Source of the DNA: Actinomycetota bacterium
Lineage (GTDB): Bacteria; Actinomycetota; Thermoleophilia; Solirubrobacterales; 70-9
Reading direction: 5' to 3'
Length of the DNA: 64,000 nt
Assembly: GCA_018268575.1 (NCBI GenBank)
Contig: JAFDWF010000166.1
Location: forward strand, 1-64,000
Positions 7,430 through 18,732 of the stretch are shown here, piece after piece. The notes under the pieces were generated by a model, which saw only the letters and a program-made list of their open reading frames with translations, ran no database searches and was not told the DNA's origin. The translations under genes and the position numbers were made by a program. Every line of letters starts with the position of its first letter. Position 1 is the first letter of the stretch.

Positions 7430-7536
7430 GGCATTCCTTTCCGTTGGGGAAGAACCCGACGAACCTAGGCCGAGACCTCCACACCACCCGTTAACCGGGT
7501 GGGACGACCGTGTGAAGAGATGGTGAATTAGATGTT

Positions 7537-7556
7537 GACTAATTGTTGAGTTAGTC
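7537..7556. promoter_or_regulatory. Inverted repeat in divergent promoter region
   Basis: GACTAA (7537-7542) and TTAGTC (7551-7556) are perfect inverted arms separated by 8 bases, inside a locally AT-rich stretch. It sits in the 258-bp space between the divergent metallophosphatase and the 7688 flavoprotein. It could be an operator for either gene. It does not match the motif shared by the three ArsR-region promoters. Confidence 0.35.
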
Positions 7557-7687: not shown

Positions 7688-8944
7688 GTGAAGCGGATCG
7701 TGATCATCGGCGGTGGCACGGGCGGGACGATGGTCGCCAACCGGCTGCGCCGAGAGAACGACGTCGAGGAGTTGCAGATCACCGTCGTCGACCGCGACGA
7801 CGCCCACCTCTACCAGCCGGGCCTCCTCTTCGTCCCGTTCGGGCTCGAGCGGCCGGAGGGCATCGTCCGCTCGCGTCGCGAGCAGCTCCACAACGGGATC
7901 GACTTCAGGCTCGGTGAGGTCGACAGGGTCGAGCTCGAGGAGAACGCCGTTCACCTCGCCGACGGCACGGACCTCGCCTACGACGCGCTGATCGTCGCCA
8001 GCGGCTCCACCCTCCTCTCCGAGGAGACCGACGGACTGCGCGGCCCTGGCTGGGGGGAGAGCGTCTTCTCTTTCTACTCGCTCGACGACGCGACCGCGCT
8101 GCGTTGGGCACTCGTCGACTTCGACGGCGGCCGGCTGGTCGTGAACCTCGTCGACATGCCGATCAAATGCCCGGTCGCGCCGCTCGAGTTCTGCTTCCTC
8201 GCCGACTGGTTCCTGCGCGAGCGCGGCGTCCGCGACAAGGTCGAGATCACCCTCGCGACGCCGCTCGACGCCGCCTTCACCAAGCCGGTCGCGGGCGAGC
8301 ACCTGGGCGGCATGCTGGAGGAACGCGGGATCGGCCTGGAGACGGAGTTCGCCACCGGCCGCGTCGACGGTGCCGAGCACCGGCTGGTCAGTTGGGACGA
8401 GCGCGAGATCCCCTTCGACCTCGCCGTCGTCGTCCCCCTGCACGGCGGCGCGCCGTTCGTCGCCCGCTCCCCCGGCCTCGGCGACGACCTCGGCTTCGTC
8501 GACGTCGACGTCCACACCCTGCAGGCAAAGGCGGCGCCCAACGTCTTCGCGATCGGCGACGCGGCGAGCCTGCCGACCTCGAAGGCCGGCTCGGCCACCC
8601 ACTTCGAGGCCGAGACGCTCTGCGCGAACGTCGAGCGCGTGCTCGGCGGCGAAGAGCCGGAGGGCAGCTACGACGGGCACGTCAACTGCTTCATCGAGAG
8701 CGGCTTCCACAAGGCGCTCCTGATCGACTTCAACTACGAGGTCGAGCCGCTGCCCGGCCGCTATCCCGAGGCCCACCTCGGGCCGCTGCCGTTGCTGCGC
8801 GAATCGCGCCTCAACCACCTCGGCAAGCTCGCCTTCGAGCCGCTTTACTGGCACGTCCTGCTCCCCGGCCGCGAGGTCCCGGGGATCGACGCGACGATGT
8901 CGATGGCGGGCAAGCAGGCACCCAAGCAAGGAGGAGAACCGTGA
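7688..8944 (+). CDS. Sulfide:quinone oxidoreductase-like FAD flavoprotein
   Basis: 418 aa from GTG 7688. N-terminal FAD-binding IVIIGGGTGG (residues 4-13), second dinucleotide motif region VASGS, and the C-terminal FAD motif NVFAIGDAA (about 285-293). Cys161 lies in IKCPVAP, with further Cys at 169, 312 and 334. The KC..AP context resembles the redox-active Cys of sulfide:quinone oxidoreductases. The likely reaction is oxidation of sulfide or persulfide with electrons to quinone at the membrane. It overlaps the DsrC-like gene by 4 bases and heads the 7688-9761 operon. A broader NAD(P)/FAD oxidoreductase role is the alternative. Confidence 0.8.
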   Translation: MKRIVIIGGGTGGTMVANRLRRENDVEELQITVVDRDDAHLYQPGLLFVPFGLERPEGIVRSRREQLHNGIDFRLGEVDRVELEENAVHLADGTDLAYDALIVASGSTLLSEETDGLRGPGWGESVFSFYSLDDATALRWALVDFDGGRLVVNLVDMPIKCPVAPLEFCFLADWFLRERGVRDKVEITLATPLDAAFTKPVAGEHLGGMLEERGIGLETEFATGRVDGAEHRLVSWDEREIPFDLAVVVPLHGGAPFVARSPGLGDDLGFVDVDVHTLQAKAAPNVFAIGDAASLPTSKAGSATHFEAETLCANVERVLGGEEPEGSYDGHVNCFIESGFHKALLIDFNYEVEPLPGRYPEAHLGPLPLLRESRLNHLGKLAFEPLYWHVLLPGREVPGIDATMSMAGKQAPKQGGEP

Positions 8945-12035: not shown

Positions 12036-14210
12036 TCAGCGCGATCCCGACCCGACCGCGACCGGCTCCTCCTCCTGAACGGGCGCAGGGGCCGCCGCAC
12101 CATCTCCGTGGCCGAAGCGGACGTCCGGCAGGATCCGGTCGAGCCAGGCGGGCAGGTACCAGGCCGCCTTGCCGCTGAGGCGCAGGAAGACCGGTAGCAA
12201 GAGCAGGCGGACCAGGAAGGCGTCGAGCAGGACGGCGACGCCGAGGATCGTGCCCATCTCCTTTGGCGGCAGCGGGCCGGAGAGCGCGAAGGTGAAGAAC
12301 ACCGCCACCATCACCCCGCCGGCGGCGAGGATCACCCGGCCGGAATGGGCGAGCCCGCCGACCATCGCATCCTTGGCGCTGCCCGTCGCTTCCCAGTGCT
12401 CCCGCGCCGAGGAGAGCAGGAAGACCGTGTAGTCCATCGCGATCGCGAAGATCATCGCGAAGAAGAAGATCGGTCCCCAGGCGTCGAGGAAGCCCTGCGA
12501 TTCGAAGCCGAGCAAGCCGGACAGGTGGCCGTGCTGGAAGATGAGCGTGGCCACGCCGAAGGCGGCGGCGGTCGAGAGCAGGTTGGCGAGCACCCCGATC
12601 GCCGCAATCAGCGGGGCCTGGAAGGCGACCAGCAGGAGCAGGAAGCCGAGCGCCAGGATCACCCCGATCGCCAGCGGCGTCGCCGAGGAGAGCGCGGTTT
12701 CGAGGTCGTGGTTTTCGGTCGCCGGGCCGCCGACGAGCGCCGCCGCCGGAAGGTCGGCGCGCAGCCGGTCGATCGTGTGACCCGTCGCTTCGGTCGAGGG
12801 CCCGGTGGTCGGGACGGCCTGGATCAGAACCGCTCCCCCGCCCCCTTCGACCGGCGCCGAGACGTTCGCGATCCCGGCGTCTTCGCGTAGCACCGCCGTC
12901 ACTTCCTTGGCCTCCGAACCCGGCGCGGTGATCTGCAGGGTGCCCGGCGCGCCGGTCCCGAAGGCGGAGCTGATCTGGTCGTAGCCGACGCGCGAGGAGT
13001 CGCCCTTCGGCACCACCTTGATCGACGGCATCCCGGTCTTCATGCCGAGGACCGGCACCGCAAGCGCGAGCAGGACGACGAGGGCAATACCGCCGAAGAC
13101 GAGCGGCCGGCGCCAGAGCAACTCTCCCCAGCGGGCGAAGCGCGGCGAGCGGTGCTCGCCTTGATGGACCCAGGGCAACGACAGCTTGTCCACACGTGGC
13201 CCGAGCTTGCCGAGGACGGCGGGCAACAGCGTCAGCGTCGCCGCCAGGATGAAGATGACCGAGATCATGATCCCCAGCGACATCGAGCGGAACGCCGGGC
13301 TCGGCACGAGCATCACTGCCGAGAGCGAGATCAGCACGGTGAGGCCGGAGAAGAGGACCGCCTTGCCGGCCGTGTCCATCGTCTCGCCGACGGCGTCCTC
13401 GGTCTTCTCGTGTTGCCCGAAGAGGGCGCCGCGGAAGCGCATGACGATGAAGAGGGCGTAGTCGATGCCCAGCGCCAAGGCGAACATCAGCGCGAAGTTC
13501 ATCGCCCAGATCGAGATCGGGGCGATCTTGGTGCCGATGTAAAGGACGCCGGCGGAGGCGATCAGGCCCACGATCGTCAGCATCAGCGGCAGCCCGGCGG
13601 CGACCAGCGAGCCGAAGGCGAGCACGAGGATCGCCAGCGTCACCGGCCAGGAGATCAGCTCCGACTTCATCATCGCTTCGCGGTTGGCTTCGTTGAAGTC
13701 CGACCACATGCCGGCGGCGCCGGTGAGGTTCGCTTCGACCCCGGACGCGGCGGCGTCCTTGATTTCGGTCTTCAGGTCGTTGGCCGCGGCGACCATCGAG
13801 TTCGGGTTCCTCGCGGCCGTGGCGCCGACGATCACGGTGTGGCCGTCGCGCGAGATCGAGGAGCCGCGCTGCGGCGGGACGACCGAACCGACCGCCGGGT
13901 CGGCGGCGAGGATCCGTTCGGTGCGGGCGACGGTGCGGCGGAAGGCGGGGTCGGCGACGGTCAGTTCCCCGGAGTGGACCGCGACCTGGAGCGCATAGCC
14001 GCCGGCGCCGCCGAAGTTCTTGTCGAGCTGTTCGCGGACCTTGACCGACTCCGAGCCGTTGGCCTGCCAGCCGGCACCGGAGAGCGCGGTCTCGACCCGC
14101 GGCGCCAGCACGCCGAGGCCGACCGCGATCACCGCCCAGGCGATGAAGACGGTCCGCCTGTGAGCGGCGGCGTAGCGACCGAGCCGCCCGACCGGACCGA
14201 GCGTGCTCAT
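12036..14210 (-). CDS. MMPL-family RND transporter
   Basis: 724 aa with twelve predicted membrane segments in two halves, each with a large extracytoplasmic loop. TM4 and TM10 carry the proton-relay Asp-Tyr (LALGIDYALF and FAIAMDYTVF) typical of MmpL/actinorhodin-type transporters. It probably exports lipids or other hydrophobic compounds. The gene begins inside the stop of the YgaP-like gene (ATGA overlap at 14207-14210), so the two form an operon divergent from the ArsR gene. The link to sulfur chemistry is from context only. Confidence 0.9.
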   Translation of the reverse strand: MSTLGPVGRLGRYAAAHRRTVFIAWAVIAVGLGVLAPRVETALSGAGWQANGSESVKVREQLDKNFGGAGGYALQVAVHSGELTVADPAFRRTVARTERILAADPAVGSVVPPQRGSSISRDGHTVIVGATAARNPNSMVAAANDLKTEIKDAAASGVEANLTGAAGMWSDFNEANREAMMKSELISWPVTLAILVLAFGSLVAAGLPLMLTIVGLIASAGVLYIGTKIAPISIWAMNFALMFALALGIDYALFIVMRFRGALFGQHEKTEDAVGETMDTAGKAVLFSGLTVLISLSAVMLVPSPAFRSMSLGIMISVIFILAATLTLLPAVLGKLGPRVDKLSLPWVHQGEHRSPRFARWGELLWRRPLVFGGIALVVLLALAVPVLGMKTGMPSIKVVPKGDSSRVGYDQISSAFGTGAPGTLQITAPGSEAKEVTAVLREDAGIANVSAPVEGGGGAVLIQAVPTTGPSTEATGHTIDRLRADLPAAALVGGPATENHDLETALSSATPLAIGVILALGFLLLLVAFQAPLIAAIGVLANLLSTAAAFGVATLIFQHGHLSGLLGFESQGFLDAWGPIFFFAMIFAIAMDYTVFLLSSAREHWEATGSAKDAMVGGLAHSGRVILAAGGVMVAVFFTFALSGPLPPKEMGTILGVAVLLDAFLVRLLLLPVFLRLSGKAAWYLPAWLDRILPDVRFGHGDGAAAPAPVQEEEPVAVGSGSR

Positions 14211-14470
14211 CGGTCGCAGGCGCCCTTGACGCCGAACCAGCGCCGCAGCACCAGGGAGCTGGGGCAGTTGCCGAAGACGACGAAGGCCAGCTGGTTGGCC
14301 GCGACGAAGCCGGTCAGCAGCAGGAACCAGGGGCTGACGACGGCGGCGAGCAGGGCGCTCAGAGCCGTCATCGTCCCCGCCATCAGGAAGAGGATCCGCT
14401 CCAGCGGCCAGACTGAGCCGGCGGCACGAGGCGACGGTGGAGCTTGCGGCGTTACGGTCGTGGCACTCAT
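14207..14470 (-). CDS. YgaP-like small membrane protein (DUF2892 type)
   Basis: 87 aa with two hydrophobic helices (ILFLMAGTMTALSALLAAVV and FLLLTGFVAANQLAFVVF), then NCPSSLVLRRWFGVKGAC. Two-helix proteins of this type occur alone or fused to rhodanese domains (YgaP), next to ArsR regulators and sulfur genes. Two Cys lie in the C-terminal part. First gene of the operon with MMPL, it starts 25 bases from the operator-like palindrome at 14497-14509. Confidence 0.75.
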   Translation of the reverse strand: MSATTVTPQAPPSPRAAGSVWPLERILFLMAGTMTALSALLAAVVSPWFLLLTGFVAANQLAFVVFGNCPSSLVLRRWFGVKGACDR

Positions 14471-14494: not shown

Positions 14495-14520
14495 ACAAGT
14501 TCACAACTTAACAAGTGTGG
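14495..14520. promoter_or_regulatory. Probable ArsR operator, site 1
   Basis: The perfect inverted repeat AAGTT-CAC-AACTT (14497-14509) sits in the divergent space between the YgaP-like/MMPL operon and the arsR gene. The word ACAACTTAACAAGTG resembles sequences upstream of the 15090 flavoprotein and of the 17206 rhodanese fusion. It is inferred to be the binding site of the ArsR protein encoded immediately to the right, giving autoregulation. Confidence 0.6.
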
Positions 14521-14535
14521 AGTAAGATAGCAGAC

Positions 14536-14865
14536 GTGAAAACCCCGATGACCCCCGAGGCCGCCGAGCTGATCGCCGATCGTTTCCGCGCCCTCTCCGA
14601 TCCCACCAGGCTGCGGATCATCGACCTCCTGAGGACCAAGGAGGAAGCCTCCGTCGGCGAGCTGGCGTCGGCGCTCGGTGCCTCCCAGCAGAACGTCTCC
14701 AAGCACCTCTCGACCCTTCTGGCCGGCGGATTCGTCGCCCGTCGCAAACAGGGGACCAGCTCGCTCTACCGGATCTCCGACCCGGAGGTCCTGGGTCTCT
14801 GCGAGCGCGTCTGCTCCGGGATCGAGACCCAGCTGCTCGAGCTCGAGCGGATGATCGCCGGCTAG
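14536..14865 (+). CDS. ArsR-family winged-helix repressor
   Basis: About 109 aa from GTG 14536 (GTG 14515 or ATG 14548 also possible). The ArsR core is clear: ALSDPTRLRIIDLL, VGELASALGASQQNVSKHLSTL as recognition helices, then the wing GGFVARRKQGTSSLY. The only Cys residues are two near the C-terminus in GLCERVC, so sensing could use thiol chemistry or metal there. It lacks the Cys pair position of the BigR/SqrR sulfide sensors, so the inducer is not assigned. It is likely the regulator of the three promoters sharing the ACAACT motif. Confidence 0.88.
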   Translation: MKTPMTPEAAELIADRFRALSDPTRLRIIDLLRTKEEASVGELASALGASQQNVSKHLSTLLAGGFVARRKQGTSSLYRISDPEVLGLCERVCSGIETQLLELERMIAG

Positions 14866-15032
14866 TTCGAGGAGTTCCATCTCGCCCGAGTCTCCGTCGG
14901 GTTGCGATACCGCCCATCCGTTGATCGCCACACCGGACGGGGGCTAGATACCCGATGTGCTCCGTCGTCCCTGCGGCCAGGCTGAGGATGGTCCCGCCTG
15001 GGTGAGCCTCGGCCTGTCTGGACAGTCCACAT

Positions 15033-15052
15033 CTTCACAACTGTACAATGGT
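15033..15052. promoter_or_regulatory. Probable ArsR operator, site 2
   Basis: TTCACAACTGTACAATGG lies about 40 bases ahead of the SQR start at 15090, followed by AT-rich GTTAATAGTTAATAG. ACAACTGTACAAT matches ACAACTATACAAT ahead of the 17206 gene and ACAACTTAACAAG at 14505. The position fits repression of the SQR promoter. Confidence 0.55.
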
Positions 15053-15089
15053 TAATAGTTAATAGCCACGACCGAACGGAGCAGATTCA

Positions 15090-16328
15090 ATGTCCTCTTC
15101 CAGCCCCAAGCGCGTGGTCGTACTCGGCTCCAGCTTCGCCGGCATGACCGGCGCCCTGGAGGTGCGGAAGCACCTCGACGATCGCGACGAGGTCGTCGTC
15201 CTCGACCCCCACGACCGCTTCACCTTCATCCCCTCGCTGATCTGGATGCCCTTCGGCGCCAGGGACGCCGAGGACGTGACCTTCCCCCTGGCCCCGCTCT
15301 ACGACAAGAAGGGCGTCGAATTCGTGAACGAGGCGGCGGCCGGTGTCGACGTCGCCGCCCACACCGTCGCCACCACCGACGGCCGCTCGCTCGACTACGA
15401 CAAGCTGCTGGTCGCCACCGGCCCGCGGCTGGCCTTCGAGAAGATCCCCGGCCTCGGGCCCGACGGCGGCTTCACCCAGTCGGTCTGCAACCTCGACCAC
15501 GCCGAACGGGCGCGGCTCGCCTGGGAGCGCTTCCTTGAGAATCCCGGCCCGGTCGTCGTCGGCACCGCCCAGGGCGGCTCCTGCTTCGGCGCCTCCTACG
15601 AGTTCCTCTTCAACGTCCACCACCGGATCCGCAAGGCGGGGCTGGAGAAGGTCGCTCCCGTCACCTTCATCACCGCCGAGCCATTCCTCGGCCACTTCGG
15701 CCTCGGTGGGGTCGGCGATTCCGGCAAACGGGTCGAGGGCTTCCTCGAGCGGCTCGGGATCGAGGGGATCCCCAACGCCTCGATCGTGGAGGTCCGTGAG
15801 GGCGAGATCGAGCTCGATGGCGGCCGGGTCCTGCCCTTCGCCTTCTCGATGATCGTGCCCCCGTTCGCCGGCGTCGACGCGATCCGCGAAAGCGAGGGCC
15901 TGGCCAATCCGGTCGGCTTCGTGCCGATCGACGACCGCTTCCGCCATCCGGAGCAGGAGGACGTCTACGCCGCCGGCGTGGCCACCGCGATCGCCCCGCC
16001 CGAGACCACCCAGGTGCCTGCGGGTGTCCCCAAGACCGGGCAGATGAGCGAGACGATGGCCAAGGTCGCCGCCGAGAACATCGTCGCCGACCTCACCGGG
16101 AAGGCACATCGGGATCTGCCGATCGCCGACCTCTCGGCGATCTGCGTGCTGGATGCCGGCAACAACGGCATCATCTTCAAGGCCGACAACGTCCTCGCCC
16201 ACGGCATCTACGCGGACGGCGACGAACCGACCGCCCACGTGATGGCGGGTCCGCAGGCCCACTGGGCGAAGCTCGCCTTCGAGCGCTACTTCCTCGCCAG
16301 CCGCAAGCGCGGGGTCACCGCCTTCTAG
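15090..16328 (+). CDS. sqr: Sulfide:quinone oxidoreductase
   Basis: 412 aa. FAD motif VVVLGSSFAG (9-18) and later LLVATGPR (107-114). Three Cys at 133, 165 and 352 match the spacing of the three catalytic/essential Cys of characterised SQRs (about 127, 159 and 353). Cys165 lies in GGSCFGASYEF. It oxidises sulfide to persulfide/polysulfide and passes electrons to quinone at the cytoplasmic membrane. It is preceded by operator site 2 and followed by the TauE, rhodanese and dioxygenase genes. It is a different subtype from the 7688 flavoprotein. Confidence 0.88.
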   Translation: MSSSSPKRVVVLGSSFAGMTGALEVRKHLDDRDEVVVLDPHDRFTFIPSLIWMPFGARDAEDVTFPLAPLYDKKGVEFVNEAAAGVDVAAHTVATTDGRSLDYDKLLVATGPRLAFEKIPGLGPDGGFTQSVCNLDHAERARLAWERFLENPGPVVVGTAQGGSCFGASYEFLFNVHHRIRKAGLEKVAPVTFITAEPFLGHFGLGGVGDSGKRVEGFLERLGIEGIPNASIVEVREGEIELDGGRVLPFAFSMIVPPFAGVDAIRESEGLANPVGFVPIDDRFRHPEQEDVYAAGVATAIAPPETTQVPAGVPKTGQMSETMAKVAAENIVADLTGKAHRDLPIADLSAICVLDAGNNGIIFKADNVLAHGIYADGDEPTAHVMAGPQAHWAKLAFERYFLASRKRGVTAF

Positions 16329-16366
16329 GCGCGGATGGATCGGGACATCGCGAGAGGCGGCCGATC

Positions 16367-17133
16367 GTGATCGGCACGATCGCCTTCGGCCTGCTGATCG
16401 GCCTGGTGATGGGCATGGTCGGCGGTGGCGGCGCCGTCCTAGCGGTCCCCGCCCTCGTCTACGTGGTCGGGCTCGGGGTTCACGAGGCCACCACCGTGAG
16501 CCTCGCGGTGGTCGCGATGGCGGCGGCGACGGGGGCGGTCGGCCAGGCCCGCCGTGGCGCCGTCTGCTGGAGCTCGGCCGCCTGGCTGTCGGTGGCCGCC
16601 GTGCTCGGCGGATTCGTCGGAGCGGCCGCCAACCGCGCGCTGGGCGGCGCCGTCCTGCTGCTCATCTTCAGCGCGGTGATGGTGATCGCCGCGCGTGCCA
16701 CCTGGCGACGTGCCGGCTCCGCGGTCGCCGTGGCCCAGGGATCCCCGACGCGGCCCCGCGGGAGCTCACCGAGGCCGGGGCCGGGATCGGCGCCCTGACC
16801 GGGCTGGTCGGCGTCGGCGGCGGCGGCGGCTTCGTCGTAGTGCCTGCGCTGGTCGTCCGCCTGGGCTTCGGCCTGCGCGAGGCGATGGCGACCTCGATGG
16901 CGATCGTCGCGATCGTCTCGGCGTCAGGACTTCTCGCCCACCTCGCCATGGGAAGCACGCTCGACGTCCCGGTGGCCGCCGCGATGGGTGGTGCCGCCGT
17001 CGCCGGCGCGCTGGCCGGCCCGCGGCTCGCGGCGGGCGTCTCCACCCGCCTGCTCGGGCGCGCCTTCGCCGCGCTGGTGGTGCTGGTGGCCGTCGGTGTG
17101 GCGGTGGCGACGGTCGCCGGAGTCGGGGTCTGA
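16367..17133 (+). pseudogene. TauE/SafE-type exporter, frameshifted
   Basis: The N-terminal half reads from 16367 (GLLIGLVMGMVGGGGAVLAV, family glycine loop) and the second half resumes in another frame (GLVGVGGGGGFVVVPALVV to the stop at 17131-17133). The switch is near 16738, within CCCAGGGATCCCC, and needs one base. Both halves are otherwise free of stops and well conserved, so the lesion is recent or a sequence error. It is a third TauE-type gene in the window, of a different subgroup from the cassette copies. It would export sulfite or thiosulfate-like anions. Confidence 0.75.
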
Positions 17134-17163
17134 GTCCTTTGGGGATTTGTACCGACTGTGCTT

Positions 17164-17192
17164 ACATACAACTATACAATTGTGAACTTGTG
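17164..17192. promoter_or_regulatory. Probable ArsR operator, site 3
   Basis: The stretch contains ACAACTATACAATTG, and on the opposite strand ACAAGTTCACAA, which is identical to a 12-base word at site 1 (14495-14506). It ends next to the AAAGGTGGGAG ribosome-binding site of the 17206 gene. It probably controls the rhodanese-dioxygenase transcript. Confidence 0.55.
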
Positions 17193-17205: not shown

Positions 17206-18351
17206 GTGTCAGTCCATCCCTCTGTATCCGAGCCTCCCGGCGGCAGCCCGCAGGCGACCATCGAGCCCGCCGACCTGGCCGACCGTCTCGCCGGCCTCGA
17301 GCCGATGACGATCCTCGACGTGCGCGCCGAGGCGAAGGACTCGATCGAGGCCGCGGGTGCGAGCTTCCGCCACCTTCCCGCCGCCCACGTCCTCGCCGAC
17401 CCCGATCAGGTCGACGCCCAGCTCGACGGCCCCGTCGCCGTGGTCTGCGAACGCGGCGTCACCGCGCAGGGAGTGACCGACGCGCTCCGCGCCCGCGGGG
17501 TCGACGCGATGGTCCTCGACAGCGGGATGAGGGGATGGCTCGGCACCCTGCAGGCCCGGCCGGTGGAGCTCGGCATCGACGGCCTCGACGTGATCCAGGT
17601 CCAGCGGCCCGGCCGCGGCTGCCTCTCCTATCTGCTCGCCGCGGGGGGAGAGGCGCTCGTCGTCGACCCGGCGCCCGACCCGGCTTCTACCTCGACCTCG
17701 CGAGGGACCTCGATGCCCGGATCACGACGGTATTCGACACCCACATCCACGCCGACCACATCTCCGGAGCGCGTGAGCTCGCCATGGCGAGCGCCGCGAC
17801 GCTGCGGCTCTCGGAGGCGGCGCTCGAGCGCGGCCTCACCTACGCGGACCGGGTGGTGCCGGTAGCCGACGGCGAGGAGCTGACGGTCGGGGGCGTGACC
17901 CTGAGGGCGTTGGCACTGCCCGGTCACACCACCGACATGACCGGCCTCGTGATCGAGGACCGAGCGCTGATCGGCGGCGACTCCCTCTTCGCCGACGGCA
18001 TCGCCCGACCGGACCTCCAGCGCGGCGACAGCGAGGGCGCCAAGGAGATGGCGTTGATGCTCCACGCGACCCTGCACGGGCGGGTCCTGGCGCTCGGGGA
18101 CGACACCGTCCTCCTCCCCTGCCACGCGCCACCCTGGGGTTCACATCGAGGCCATCGCGCCTCGCCTCGGCACGGTCCGGGCGGAGGTCCCCGAGCTGGC
18201 CCTGCACGATCCTGAGGAGTTCGCCCGCGAGGTGACGGCCGCCATGCCTCCTCGCCCCGCGAACTACGAGGAGATCATCGCCGTCAACTCCGGGACTCGC
18301 CCCTTCGACCCGGAACTCGAGACCGGTGGCAACAGCTGCGCCACCCGATGA
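17206..18351 (+). pseudogene. Rhodanese-persulfide dioxygenase fusion with two frameshifts
   Basis: Start at GTG 17206 after AAAGGTGGGAG. The first ~125 codons form a rhodanese domain (LDVRAEA, active loop VVCERGVTAQG). A metallo-beta-lactamase domain of the ETHE1/persulfide dioxygenase type follows, with VFDTHIHADHISG, LPGHTTDM and GGDSLFADG. The frame shifts near 17680 (in CCCGACCCGGC) and again near 18130 (in CTGGGGTT), after which EAIAPRLGTVRAEVPEL leads to the stop at 18349. It would oxidise glutathione- or protein-persulfide to sulfite. With two one-base lesions the gene is broken unless these are sequence errors. Confidence 0.75.
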
Positions 18352-18732
18352 ATGGAGCTGGAACCCAAGATGAACGCCTCCTTCCTGTCCCGCATGCGTC
18401 GCTCCGCCGACGACCTCGATCCCGCTGCCGCGGCGGCCGGTTCCGCGGAGGGCAGGCTGCTCCTGATCGACGTCCGTGAGCCAGATGAGTTCCGGCAGAT
18501 GCACCCACCGCGCGCCGAGCCCGTCCCGCTGGGTCAACTGGCGGCGCACCTGCAACGGCTGGGCGCCGCCGGCAAGCCCGTCGCCTTCGTGTGCCGGTCG
18601 GGCTCGCGCAGTGCGATGGCGACCCGCCAGGCTCGCCAAGCCGGGATCGACGCGCACAACGTCACCGGGGGGATGCTCGCCTGGGAGCGCCAGCGCCTTC
18701 CCCTCGAAGCAGGCGATCCGGCCCGGCCCTGA
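18352..18732 (+). CDS. Single-domain rhodanese
   Basis: 126 aa from ATG 18352, directly after the previous stop (ATG 18370 gives a six-residue shorter form). Rhodanese landmarks are LLIDVREPDEF and the active-site loop FVCRSGSRSAM, with catalytic Cys in CRSGSR, and the NVTGGMLAW ending. It moves sulfane sulfur between carriers. It belongs to the same transcript as the rhodanese-dioxygenase fusion and is likely under operator site 3. Confidence 0.88.
   Translation: MELEPKMNASFLSRMRRSADDLDPAAAAAGSAEGRLLLIDVREPDEFRQMHPPRAEPVPLGQLAAHLQRLGAAGKPVAFVCRSGSRSAMATRQARQAGIDAHNVTGGMLAWERQRLPLEAGDPARP

Follow-up and report, generated by a model that had tools for sequence, protein, structure and literature searches.

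What reads three similar words that lie ahead of three promoters in a small cluster of sulfur genes, and what would make the reader let go? The words are found in a 64,000-nucleotide stretch of DNA (the window: positions 1 to 64,000 of contig JAFDWF010000166.1, assembly GCA_018268575.1) from an Actinomycetota bacterium of the class Thermoleophilia, and a gene for a repressor of the ArsR/SmtB family, arsR, lies beside them. A preliminary description of the window had proposed that they are copies of a shared ArsR operator, uniting three operons in one regulon: the divergent arsR and ygaP-mmpl genes, a gene for sulfide:quinone oxidoreductase (SQR), and a gene that joins a rhodanese to a persulfide dioxygenase (PDO).

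All three words are present, ACAACTTAACAA at 14503-14514, ACAACTGTACAA at 15037-15048 and ACAACTATACAA at 17168-17179, two of them one or two bases away from where they had been placed. So is a second repeat that had been claimed, the 12-base word ACAAGTTCACAA, which occurs at 14495-14506 on the forward strand and again, across from the third site, at 17180-17191 on the reverse strand. If such words were frequent at random they would mean little. When the whole genome (a 4.3-Mb assembly of 226 contigs) is scanned, ACAACTNNACAAN is matched exactly three times, always at these promoters and within 2.7 kb, compared with 1 match for the reversed control pattern, so the motif is not frequent at random. 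A looser scan of the window, for ACAACTNTACAA with up to 2 mismatches, gives 9 matches where 0.98 are expected, a number that no shuffle attained.

What had escaped notice is that ACAACTNNACAAN forms the left portion of a longer palindrome of 16 bp, ACAACT-N4-AGTTGT. The copies in the window, predicted operators 1 (ACAACTTAACAAGTGT, 14503..14518), 2 (ACAACTGTACAATGGT, 15037..15052) and 3 (ACAACTATACAATTGT, 17168..17183), depart from it by 2, 2 and 1 mismatches, and operator 3 is overlapped by a second register offset by 8 bp (ACAATTGTGAACTTGT, 17176..17191; 2 mismatches). Nineteen other genomes of the order have SQR orthologues (63-93% identity), and when the surroundings of these are compared, the conserved promoter element is this same palindrome, which in the relatives stands upstream of the ArsR orthologue.

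A search of genome contigs with the ArsR alignment yielded 80 arsR loci, most of them from Thermoleophilia and a few bearing the label Gemmatimonadetes or Acidobacteriota. Of these, 68 had played no part in deriving the motif, and in them a 270-bp stretch around each arsR start was searched for the palindrome: it is present with at most 1 mismatch in 28 loci and with at most 2 in 53. When the half-site is permuted in the 59 other ways, the resulting palindromes turn up in 0.07 loci on average and in 2 at most, and of the spacers tested, from 0 to 10, every length except 4 gives 0 loci. Relative to the rest of the loci, the density of the palindrome near arsR is 290-, 153- and 75-fold higher at 0, 1 and 2 mismatches. 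The hold-out test also rules out the 13-base word of the preliminary description as the full operator, the word being part of the palindrome with its fixed 4-bp spacer.

A scoring matrix of 32 bp, built from 60 arsR-upstream sites taken only from other genomes, gives operator 3, operator 2, the second register of operator 3, and operator 1 scores of 34.4, 31.2, 29.3 and 26.6 bits. The next site in the window, overlapping registers aside, scores 9.2. Among the subset of the genome's 2-mismatch palindromes that was scored with the matrix, the best outside the cluster reaches just 11.7 bits, so none is called an additional target and these candidates were dropped. The profile R1, run on the same genome, found operator 3 only (14.0 and 12.4 bits) and did not extend the regulon, its poor reach probably owing to a background that was not GC-rich. 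In 299 genomes of the class, the exact palindrome with one flanking A occurs 22 times and its reversed control once; among 19 loci examined, 16 have arsR, ygaP or mmpl next to the palindrome, with the proviso that motif discovery had drawn on a few of the same genomes.

It might be objected that the motif belongs to a different regulator, another ArsR-like protein or a sigma-related factor, and that its adjacency to arsR is incidental. A near-identical palindrome with a fixed spacer, ACAACCATTTAGTTGT, does lie at the gene of another ArsR-like group (G114, C177:908, which is L128:908-923; G080, C89:118187, which is L040:7188-7203), and the half-site is therefore not exclusive to one ArsR group. 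Such ownership does not readily accommodate the hold-out, permutation and spacer controls, the separation of the operators by the matrix in both window and genome, or the class-wide adjacency of the palindrome to the gene cluster of this particular ArsR, and I consider it very improbable. Comparison of sequences strongly supports the view that the predicted operator is the palindrome, read by the neighboring ArsR.

The operator may be larger than the palindrome itself. Outside the inner palindrome of the arsR sites (L135-L214), a direct repeat of the half-site ACAACT appears at an offset of exactly 8 bp: there 34 of 120 arms match at 5 or more of the 6 bases, while other offsets give 0-2, except for -16 with 6. 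The repeat accounts for the overlapping words of the preliminary description and for the doubling of operator 3. It may serve a second dimer or offer alternative registers.

How do the sites stand to the genes? Operator 1 lies between the divergent ygaP-mmpl and arsR genes, with an extra half-site, ACAAGT, beginning 8 bp upstream at 14495; a sister metagenome-assembled genome (L135) carries a near-identical site in the same place. Operator 1 overlaps a sigma-70-like arsR promoter on the forward strand (14500..14528, TTCACA-17-TAAGAT; 1 found by consensus scan, 0.1 expected), so that bound ArsR should block arsR and probably ygaP-mmpl as well, an overlap that would suit the repression proposed in the preliminary description. 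The GTG start of arsR, at 14536, is only 8 bp downstream of the -10 hexamer, hence the transcript may be leaderless. Operator 2 lies 37 bp upstream of the SQR start, and an identical 16-mer precedes SQR in G077, L034. Operator 3 lies 22 bp upstream of the rhodanese-dioxygenase start; the PDO orthologue in G050 likewise has a site upstream.

Then there is the evidence from targets that have parted company with arsR. In G077 and G047 arsR and SQR are on different contigs, and SQR still has the site upstream. An exact site precedes a rhodanese gene in G110 and a DsrE-family gene in G016, and in G012 an exact palindrome lies between a second arsR and a divergent rhodanese-like gene (L123:7589-8424), the paralogue being shorter and having CxxxC. 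Of 21 SQR promoters scored, 13 exceed 20 bits and 8 fall below 0. Autoregulation of arsR and control of YgaP/MMPL, SQR and the persulfide dioxygenase are in this way well supported as predictions, and the shared operator and three-operon regulon first proposed draw support from the hold-out conservation, from the matrix made with other genomes, and from the SQR sites whose arsR lies elsewhere.

Three of the 13 high-scoring SQR promoters, those of G080, G110 and G086 (L040, L041, L043), have a variant operator, ACCACT-N4-AGTAGT, flanked by ATAC and GTAT. The ArsR proteins of these same genomes are altered around the wing and the recognition helix. It is possible that operator and regulator are changing together.

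What might the regulator sense? The ArsR of the window has two cysteines, C89 and C93, and no others. They form a CxxxC on helix alpha-5, and all of 60 orthologues compared keep both, even though the search patterns had not included them. I propose that the ArsR encoded beside the three sites uses them as its operators. An ArsR dimer would sit on the palindrome, over the promoter, and repress arsR, ygaP-mmpl, SQR with TauE, and the rhodanese-persulfide dioxygenase with the rhodanese downstream. As sulfide is oxidized to persulfides and polysulfides, these would modify C89 and C93, most simply by a sulfur bridge, and the modified dimer would leave the DNA. Its release would turn on sulfide oxidation (SQR), persulfide removal (dioxygenase and rhodanese), sulfite export (TauE) and the membrane functions of YgaP/MMPL. 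I think this account, taken as a whole, probable. Its parts are of different standing: the comparison of genomes shows the operator sequence, ties it to the clade of this ArsR and gives the target genes, while from these I infer physical binding, repression rather than activation, the reactive-sulfur signal and the cysteine chemistry.

Reactive sulfur is the best inference for the signal, judging by the neighborhoods, because the neighbors are SQR, PDO, rhodanese, DsrE, glutaredoxin, thioredoxin and TauE. Loci lacking MMPL have among their neighbors PDO-rhodanese fusions, glutaredoxins, a thioredoxin and a gene resembling SQR. Sulfur neighbors return in another family of the phylum: of 16 ArsR orthologues that carry the same CxxxC, 12 lie no more than about 1.5 kb from a PDO, rhodanese or TauE gene, and the operator there has diverged. 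No arsenic genes were seen among the neighbors examined.

This last point bears on an alternative view, in which operator and regulon are correct and the signal is a thiophilic metal or metalloid, As(III), Sb(III) or Cd(II), on the CxxxC pair. In its favor, ArsR/SmtB proteins classically sense metals, CzrA, SmtB and the antimony repressor AntR are among the folds nearest to this ArsR, and a thiophilic ion could sit on two cysteines of alpha-5. It does not sit well with neighbors that are sulfur and thiol genes instead of arsenic genes. Nor does it sit well with the metal site: of the four zinc-site residues in alpha-5 of SmtB, D82 alone aligns with the same residue in ArsR and the other three positions differ, so that the alpha-5 ligands of the SmtB/CzrA type are not kept. 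I judge a metal signal quite unlikely.

Some observations weigh against the proposal as a whole. Within 5 kb of arsR in the 80 loci, mmpl is found 59 times and ygaP 45, and sulfur genes in only 25 (raw counts, with no background rate). YgaP/MMPL is the commonest neighbor, and therefore the core function may exceed sulfur. Eight of the 21 SQR promoters are without the site, and in the window itself the reading frames of TauE and the dioxygenase are interrupted. The neighbor counts would be expected if ArsR were a general thiol-redox switch whose triggers are disulfide stress, hypochlorite or electrophiles and whose main output is MMPL/YgaP, sulfur genes having been recruited to the regulon in some lineages. 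The glutaredoxin and thioredoxin neighbors agree with such a switch, and so does an OEP/HlyD efflux pair adjoining arsR at two Gemmatimonadetes loci. What tells against it is that rhodanese and DsrE genes follow those exact sites away from arsR-mmpl whose neighbors can be identified, and that the second family again shows sulfur neighbors. A general switch is unlikely in my estimation, though less so than a metal sensor; reactive sulfur remains the signal I prefer.

The genes of the cluster were called by Pfam, NCBIfam and PDB searches. On the reverse strand lie an MMPL-family transporter (12036..14210; PF03176, E 4.7e-71) and a YgaP-like transmembrane protein without a rhodanese domain (14207..14470; PF11127, E 4.6e-4, below the curated cut-off). 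On the forward strand, arsR (14536..14865; 109 aa, HTH_20 and HTH_5 above cut-off) is followed by SQR (15090..16328; PDB 3sz0, a sulfide-quinone reductase, E 1.2e-90) and by a TauE/SafE sulfite exporter (16367..17133) whose interrupted frame consists of two open reading frames in different frames, PF01925 matching the N-terminal part (E 4.4e-19). The rhodanese with an ETHE1-like persulfide dioxygenase (17206..18348) is interrupted twice, near 17680 and 18125. Its homologue in G077, which is intact and matches ETHE1 and PRF structures, aligns with it by tblastn in three pieces and two frames. Assembly errors or decay could account for the interrupted frames of both genes. A rhodanese-domain protein (18352..18732; PF00581, E 5.4e-14) comes last and, from its spacing, is probably cotranscribed with the dioxygenase.

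A second SQR in the window (7691-8944) may fall outside the scheme. It matches NCBIfam NF049943 (type III SQR, selenoprotein subtype) at 565.6 against a cut-off of 525; its frame is open, with no read-through stop despite the subtype, and genes for DsrC and DsrE2 follow. The preliminary description had found no ArsR site ahead of this operon (7688), and the matrix scan of the 64-kb window finds none either. It had also noted a GACTAA/TTAGTC inverted repeat, which exists (TTGACTAATTGTTGAGTTAGTC, 7535-7556, upstream of the operon), differs from the ArsR operator, and is a candidate site for another regulator; no obvious copy was visible by eye upstream of four SQR-like genes at other loci. Separate control of the operon is plausible in this genome, but in the sister genome G114 the orthologues lie about 150 bp after mmpl, on the same strand, behind ygaP-mmpl, an arrangement by which the second SQR operon may join the predicted ArsR regulon through cotranscription.

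If the proposal is right, it provides sulfide and persulfide defense in Thermoleophilia with a definite operator, a regulator and a list of targets; no described sulfide regulator of that class was found in the open-licence literature. It would allow genomes to be scanned for members of the regulon and would tie MMPL transporters to sulfur stress, a link that is directly testable. Nothing relevant was found in the same literature for the motif, for MMPL/DUF2892 with ArsR or for ArsR with CXXXC, an absence that is weak evidence. I would go further, at even odds: a separate ArsR branch, present in Thermoleophilia and in one or more further actinobacterial families, would sense reactive sulfur by a single-helix CxxxC, the Thermoleophilia operator would be built of ACAACT half-sites in 8-bp steps with a 6-4-6 palindrome at the center, and the YgaP/MMPL module would be a new part of sulfane-sulfur defense.

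How does this regulator compare with those already known? It belongs among the winged helix-turn-helix proteins of ArsR/SmtB, by its HTH_20 and HTH_5 matches, by NCBIfam NF033788 (88.6 bits, cut-off 55) and by a predicted structure (pLDDT 93.9) whose nearest folds are CzrA, NolR and SmtB, also the closest PDB sequences. The inverted repeat at its own gene agrees, at the level of sequence, with the autoregulation characteristic of the family. Its predicted regulon differs from those of SmtB, CzrA and NolR. In Staphylococcus aureus a single repressor, CstR, serves the persulfide and sulfide detoxification genes of the cst operon; CstR is a CsoR-family protein, with a fold unrelated to ArsR.

Closer in function are the sulfide sensors. 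BigR of Xylella and Agrobacterium represses a sulfur-transferase/ETHE1 dioxygenase, Blh, which has been compared with CstB, and a TauE exporter, and is relieved by sulfide or polysulfide (PMC5823870). Like BigR, the ArsR of the window would be an ArsR-family repressor set over the promoter of dioxygenase and TauE-type genes; unlike BigR, which uses Cys42 and Cys108, it has its cysteines on one helix, and it scores 35.5 bits with the BigR equivalog model NF040642, whose cut-off is 155. SqrR of Rhodobacter and YgaV of E. coli are sulfide- or persulfide-responsive repressors of sqr or ygaVP, acting at ATTC-N8-GAAT rather than ACAACT-N4-AGTTGT, and YgaV, linked like the window regulator to a YgaP gene, has Cys31 and Cys98 in place of CxxxC (PMC9774250). 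SoxR and sHdrR of Hyphomicrobium, sulfane-sulfur-responsive repressors of sulfur oxidation genes, have other targets and a distant pair as in SqrR (Cys50 and Cys116 in SoxR; PMC10451225, PMC12423496). With only C89 and C93, ArsR cannot form the distant pair of SqrR, BigR, YgaV and SoxR, two cysteines some 67 residues apart, which in SqrR, BigR and YgaV lie in alpha-2 and the C-terminal helix. What it would share with SqrR, BigR and YgaV are targets in sulfide and persulfide detoxification: SQR, rhodanese-PDO, rhodanese and DsrE. It would thus resemble these sensors in action without their defining features, and the comparison suggests that ArsR proteins with a second cysteine arrangement have gained the sensing of sulfur.
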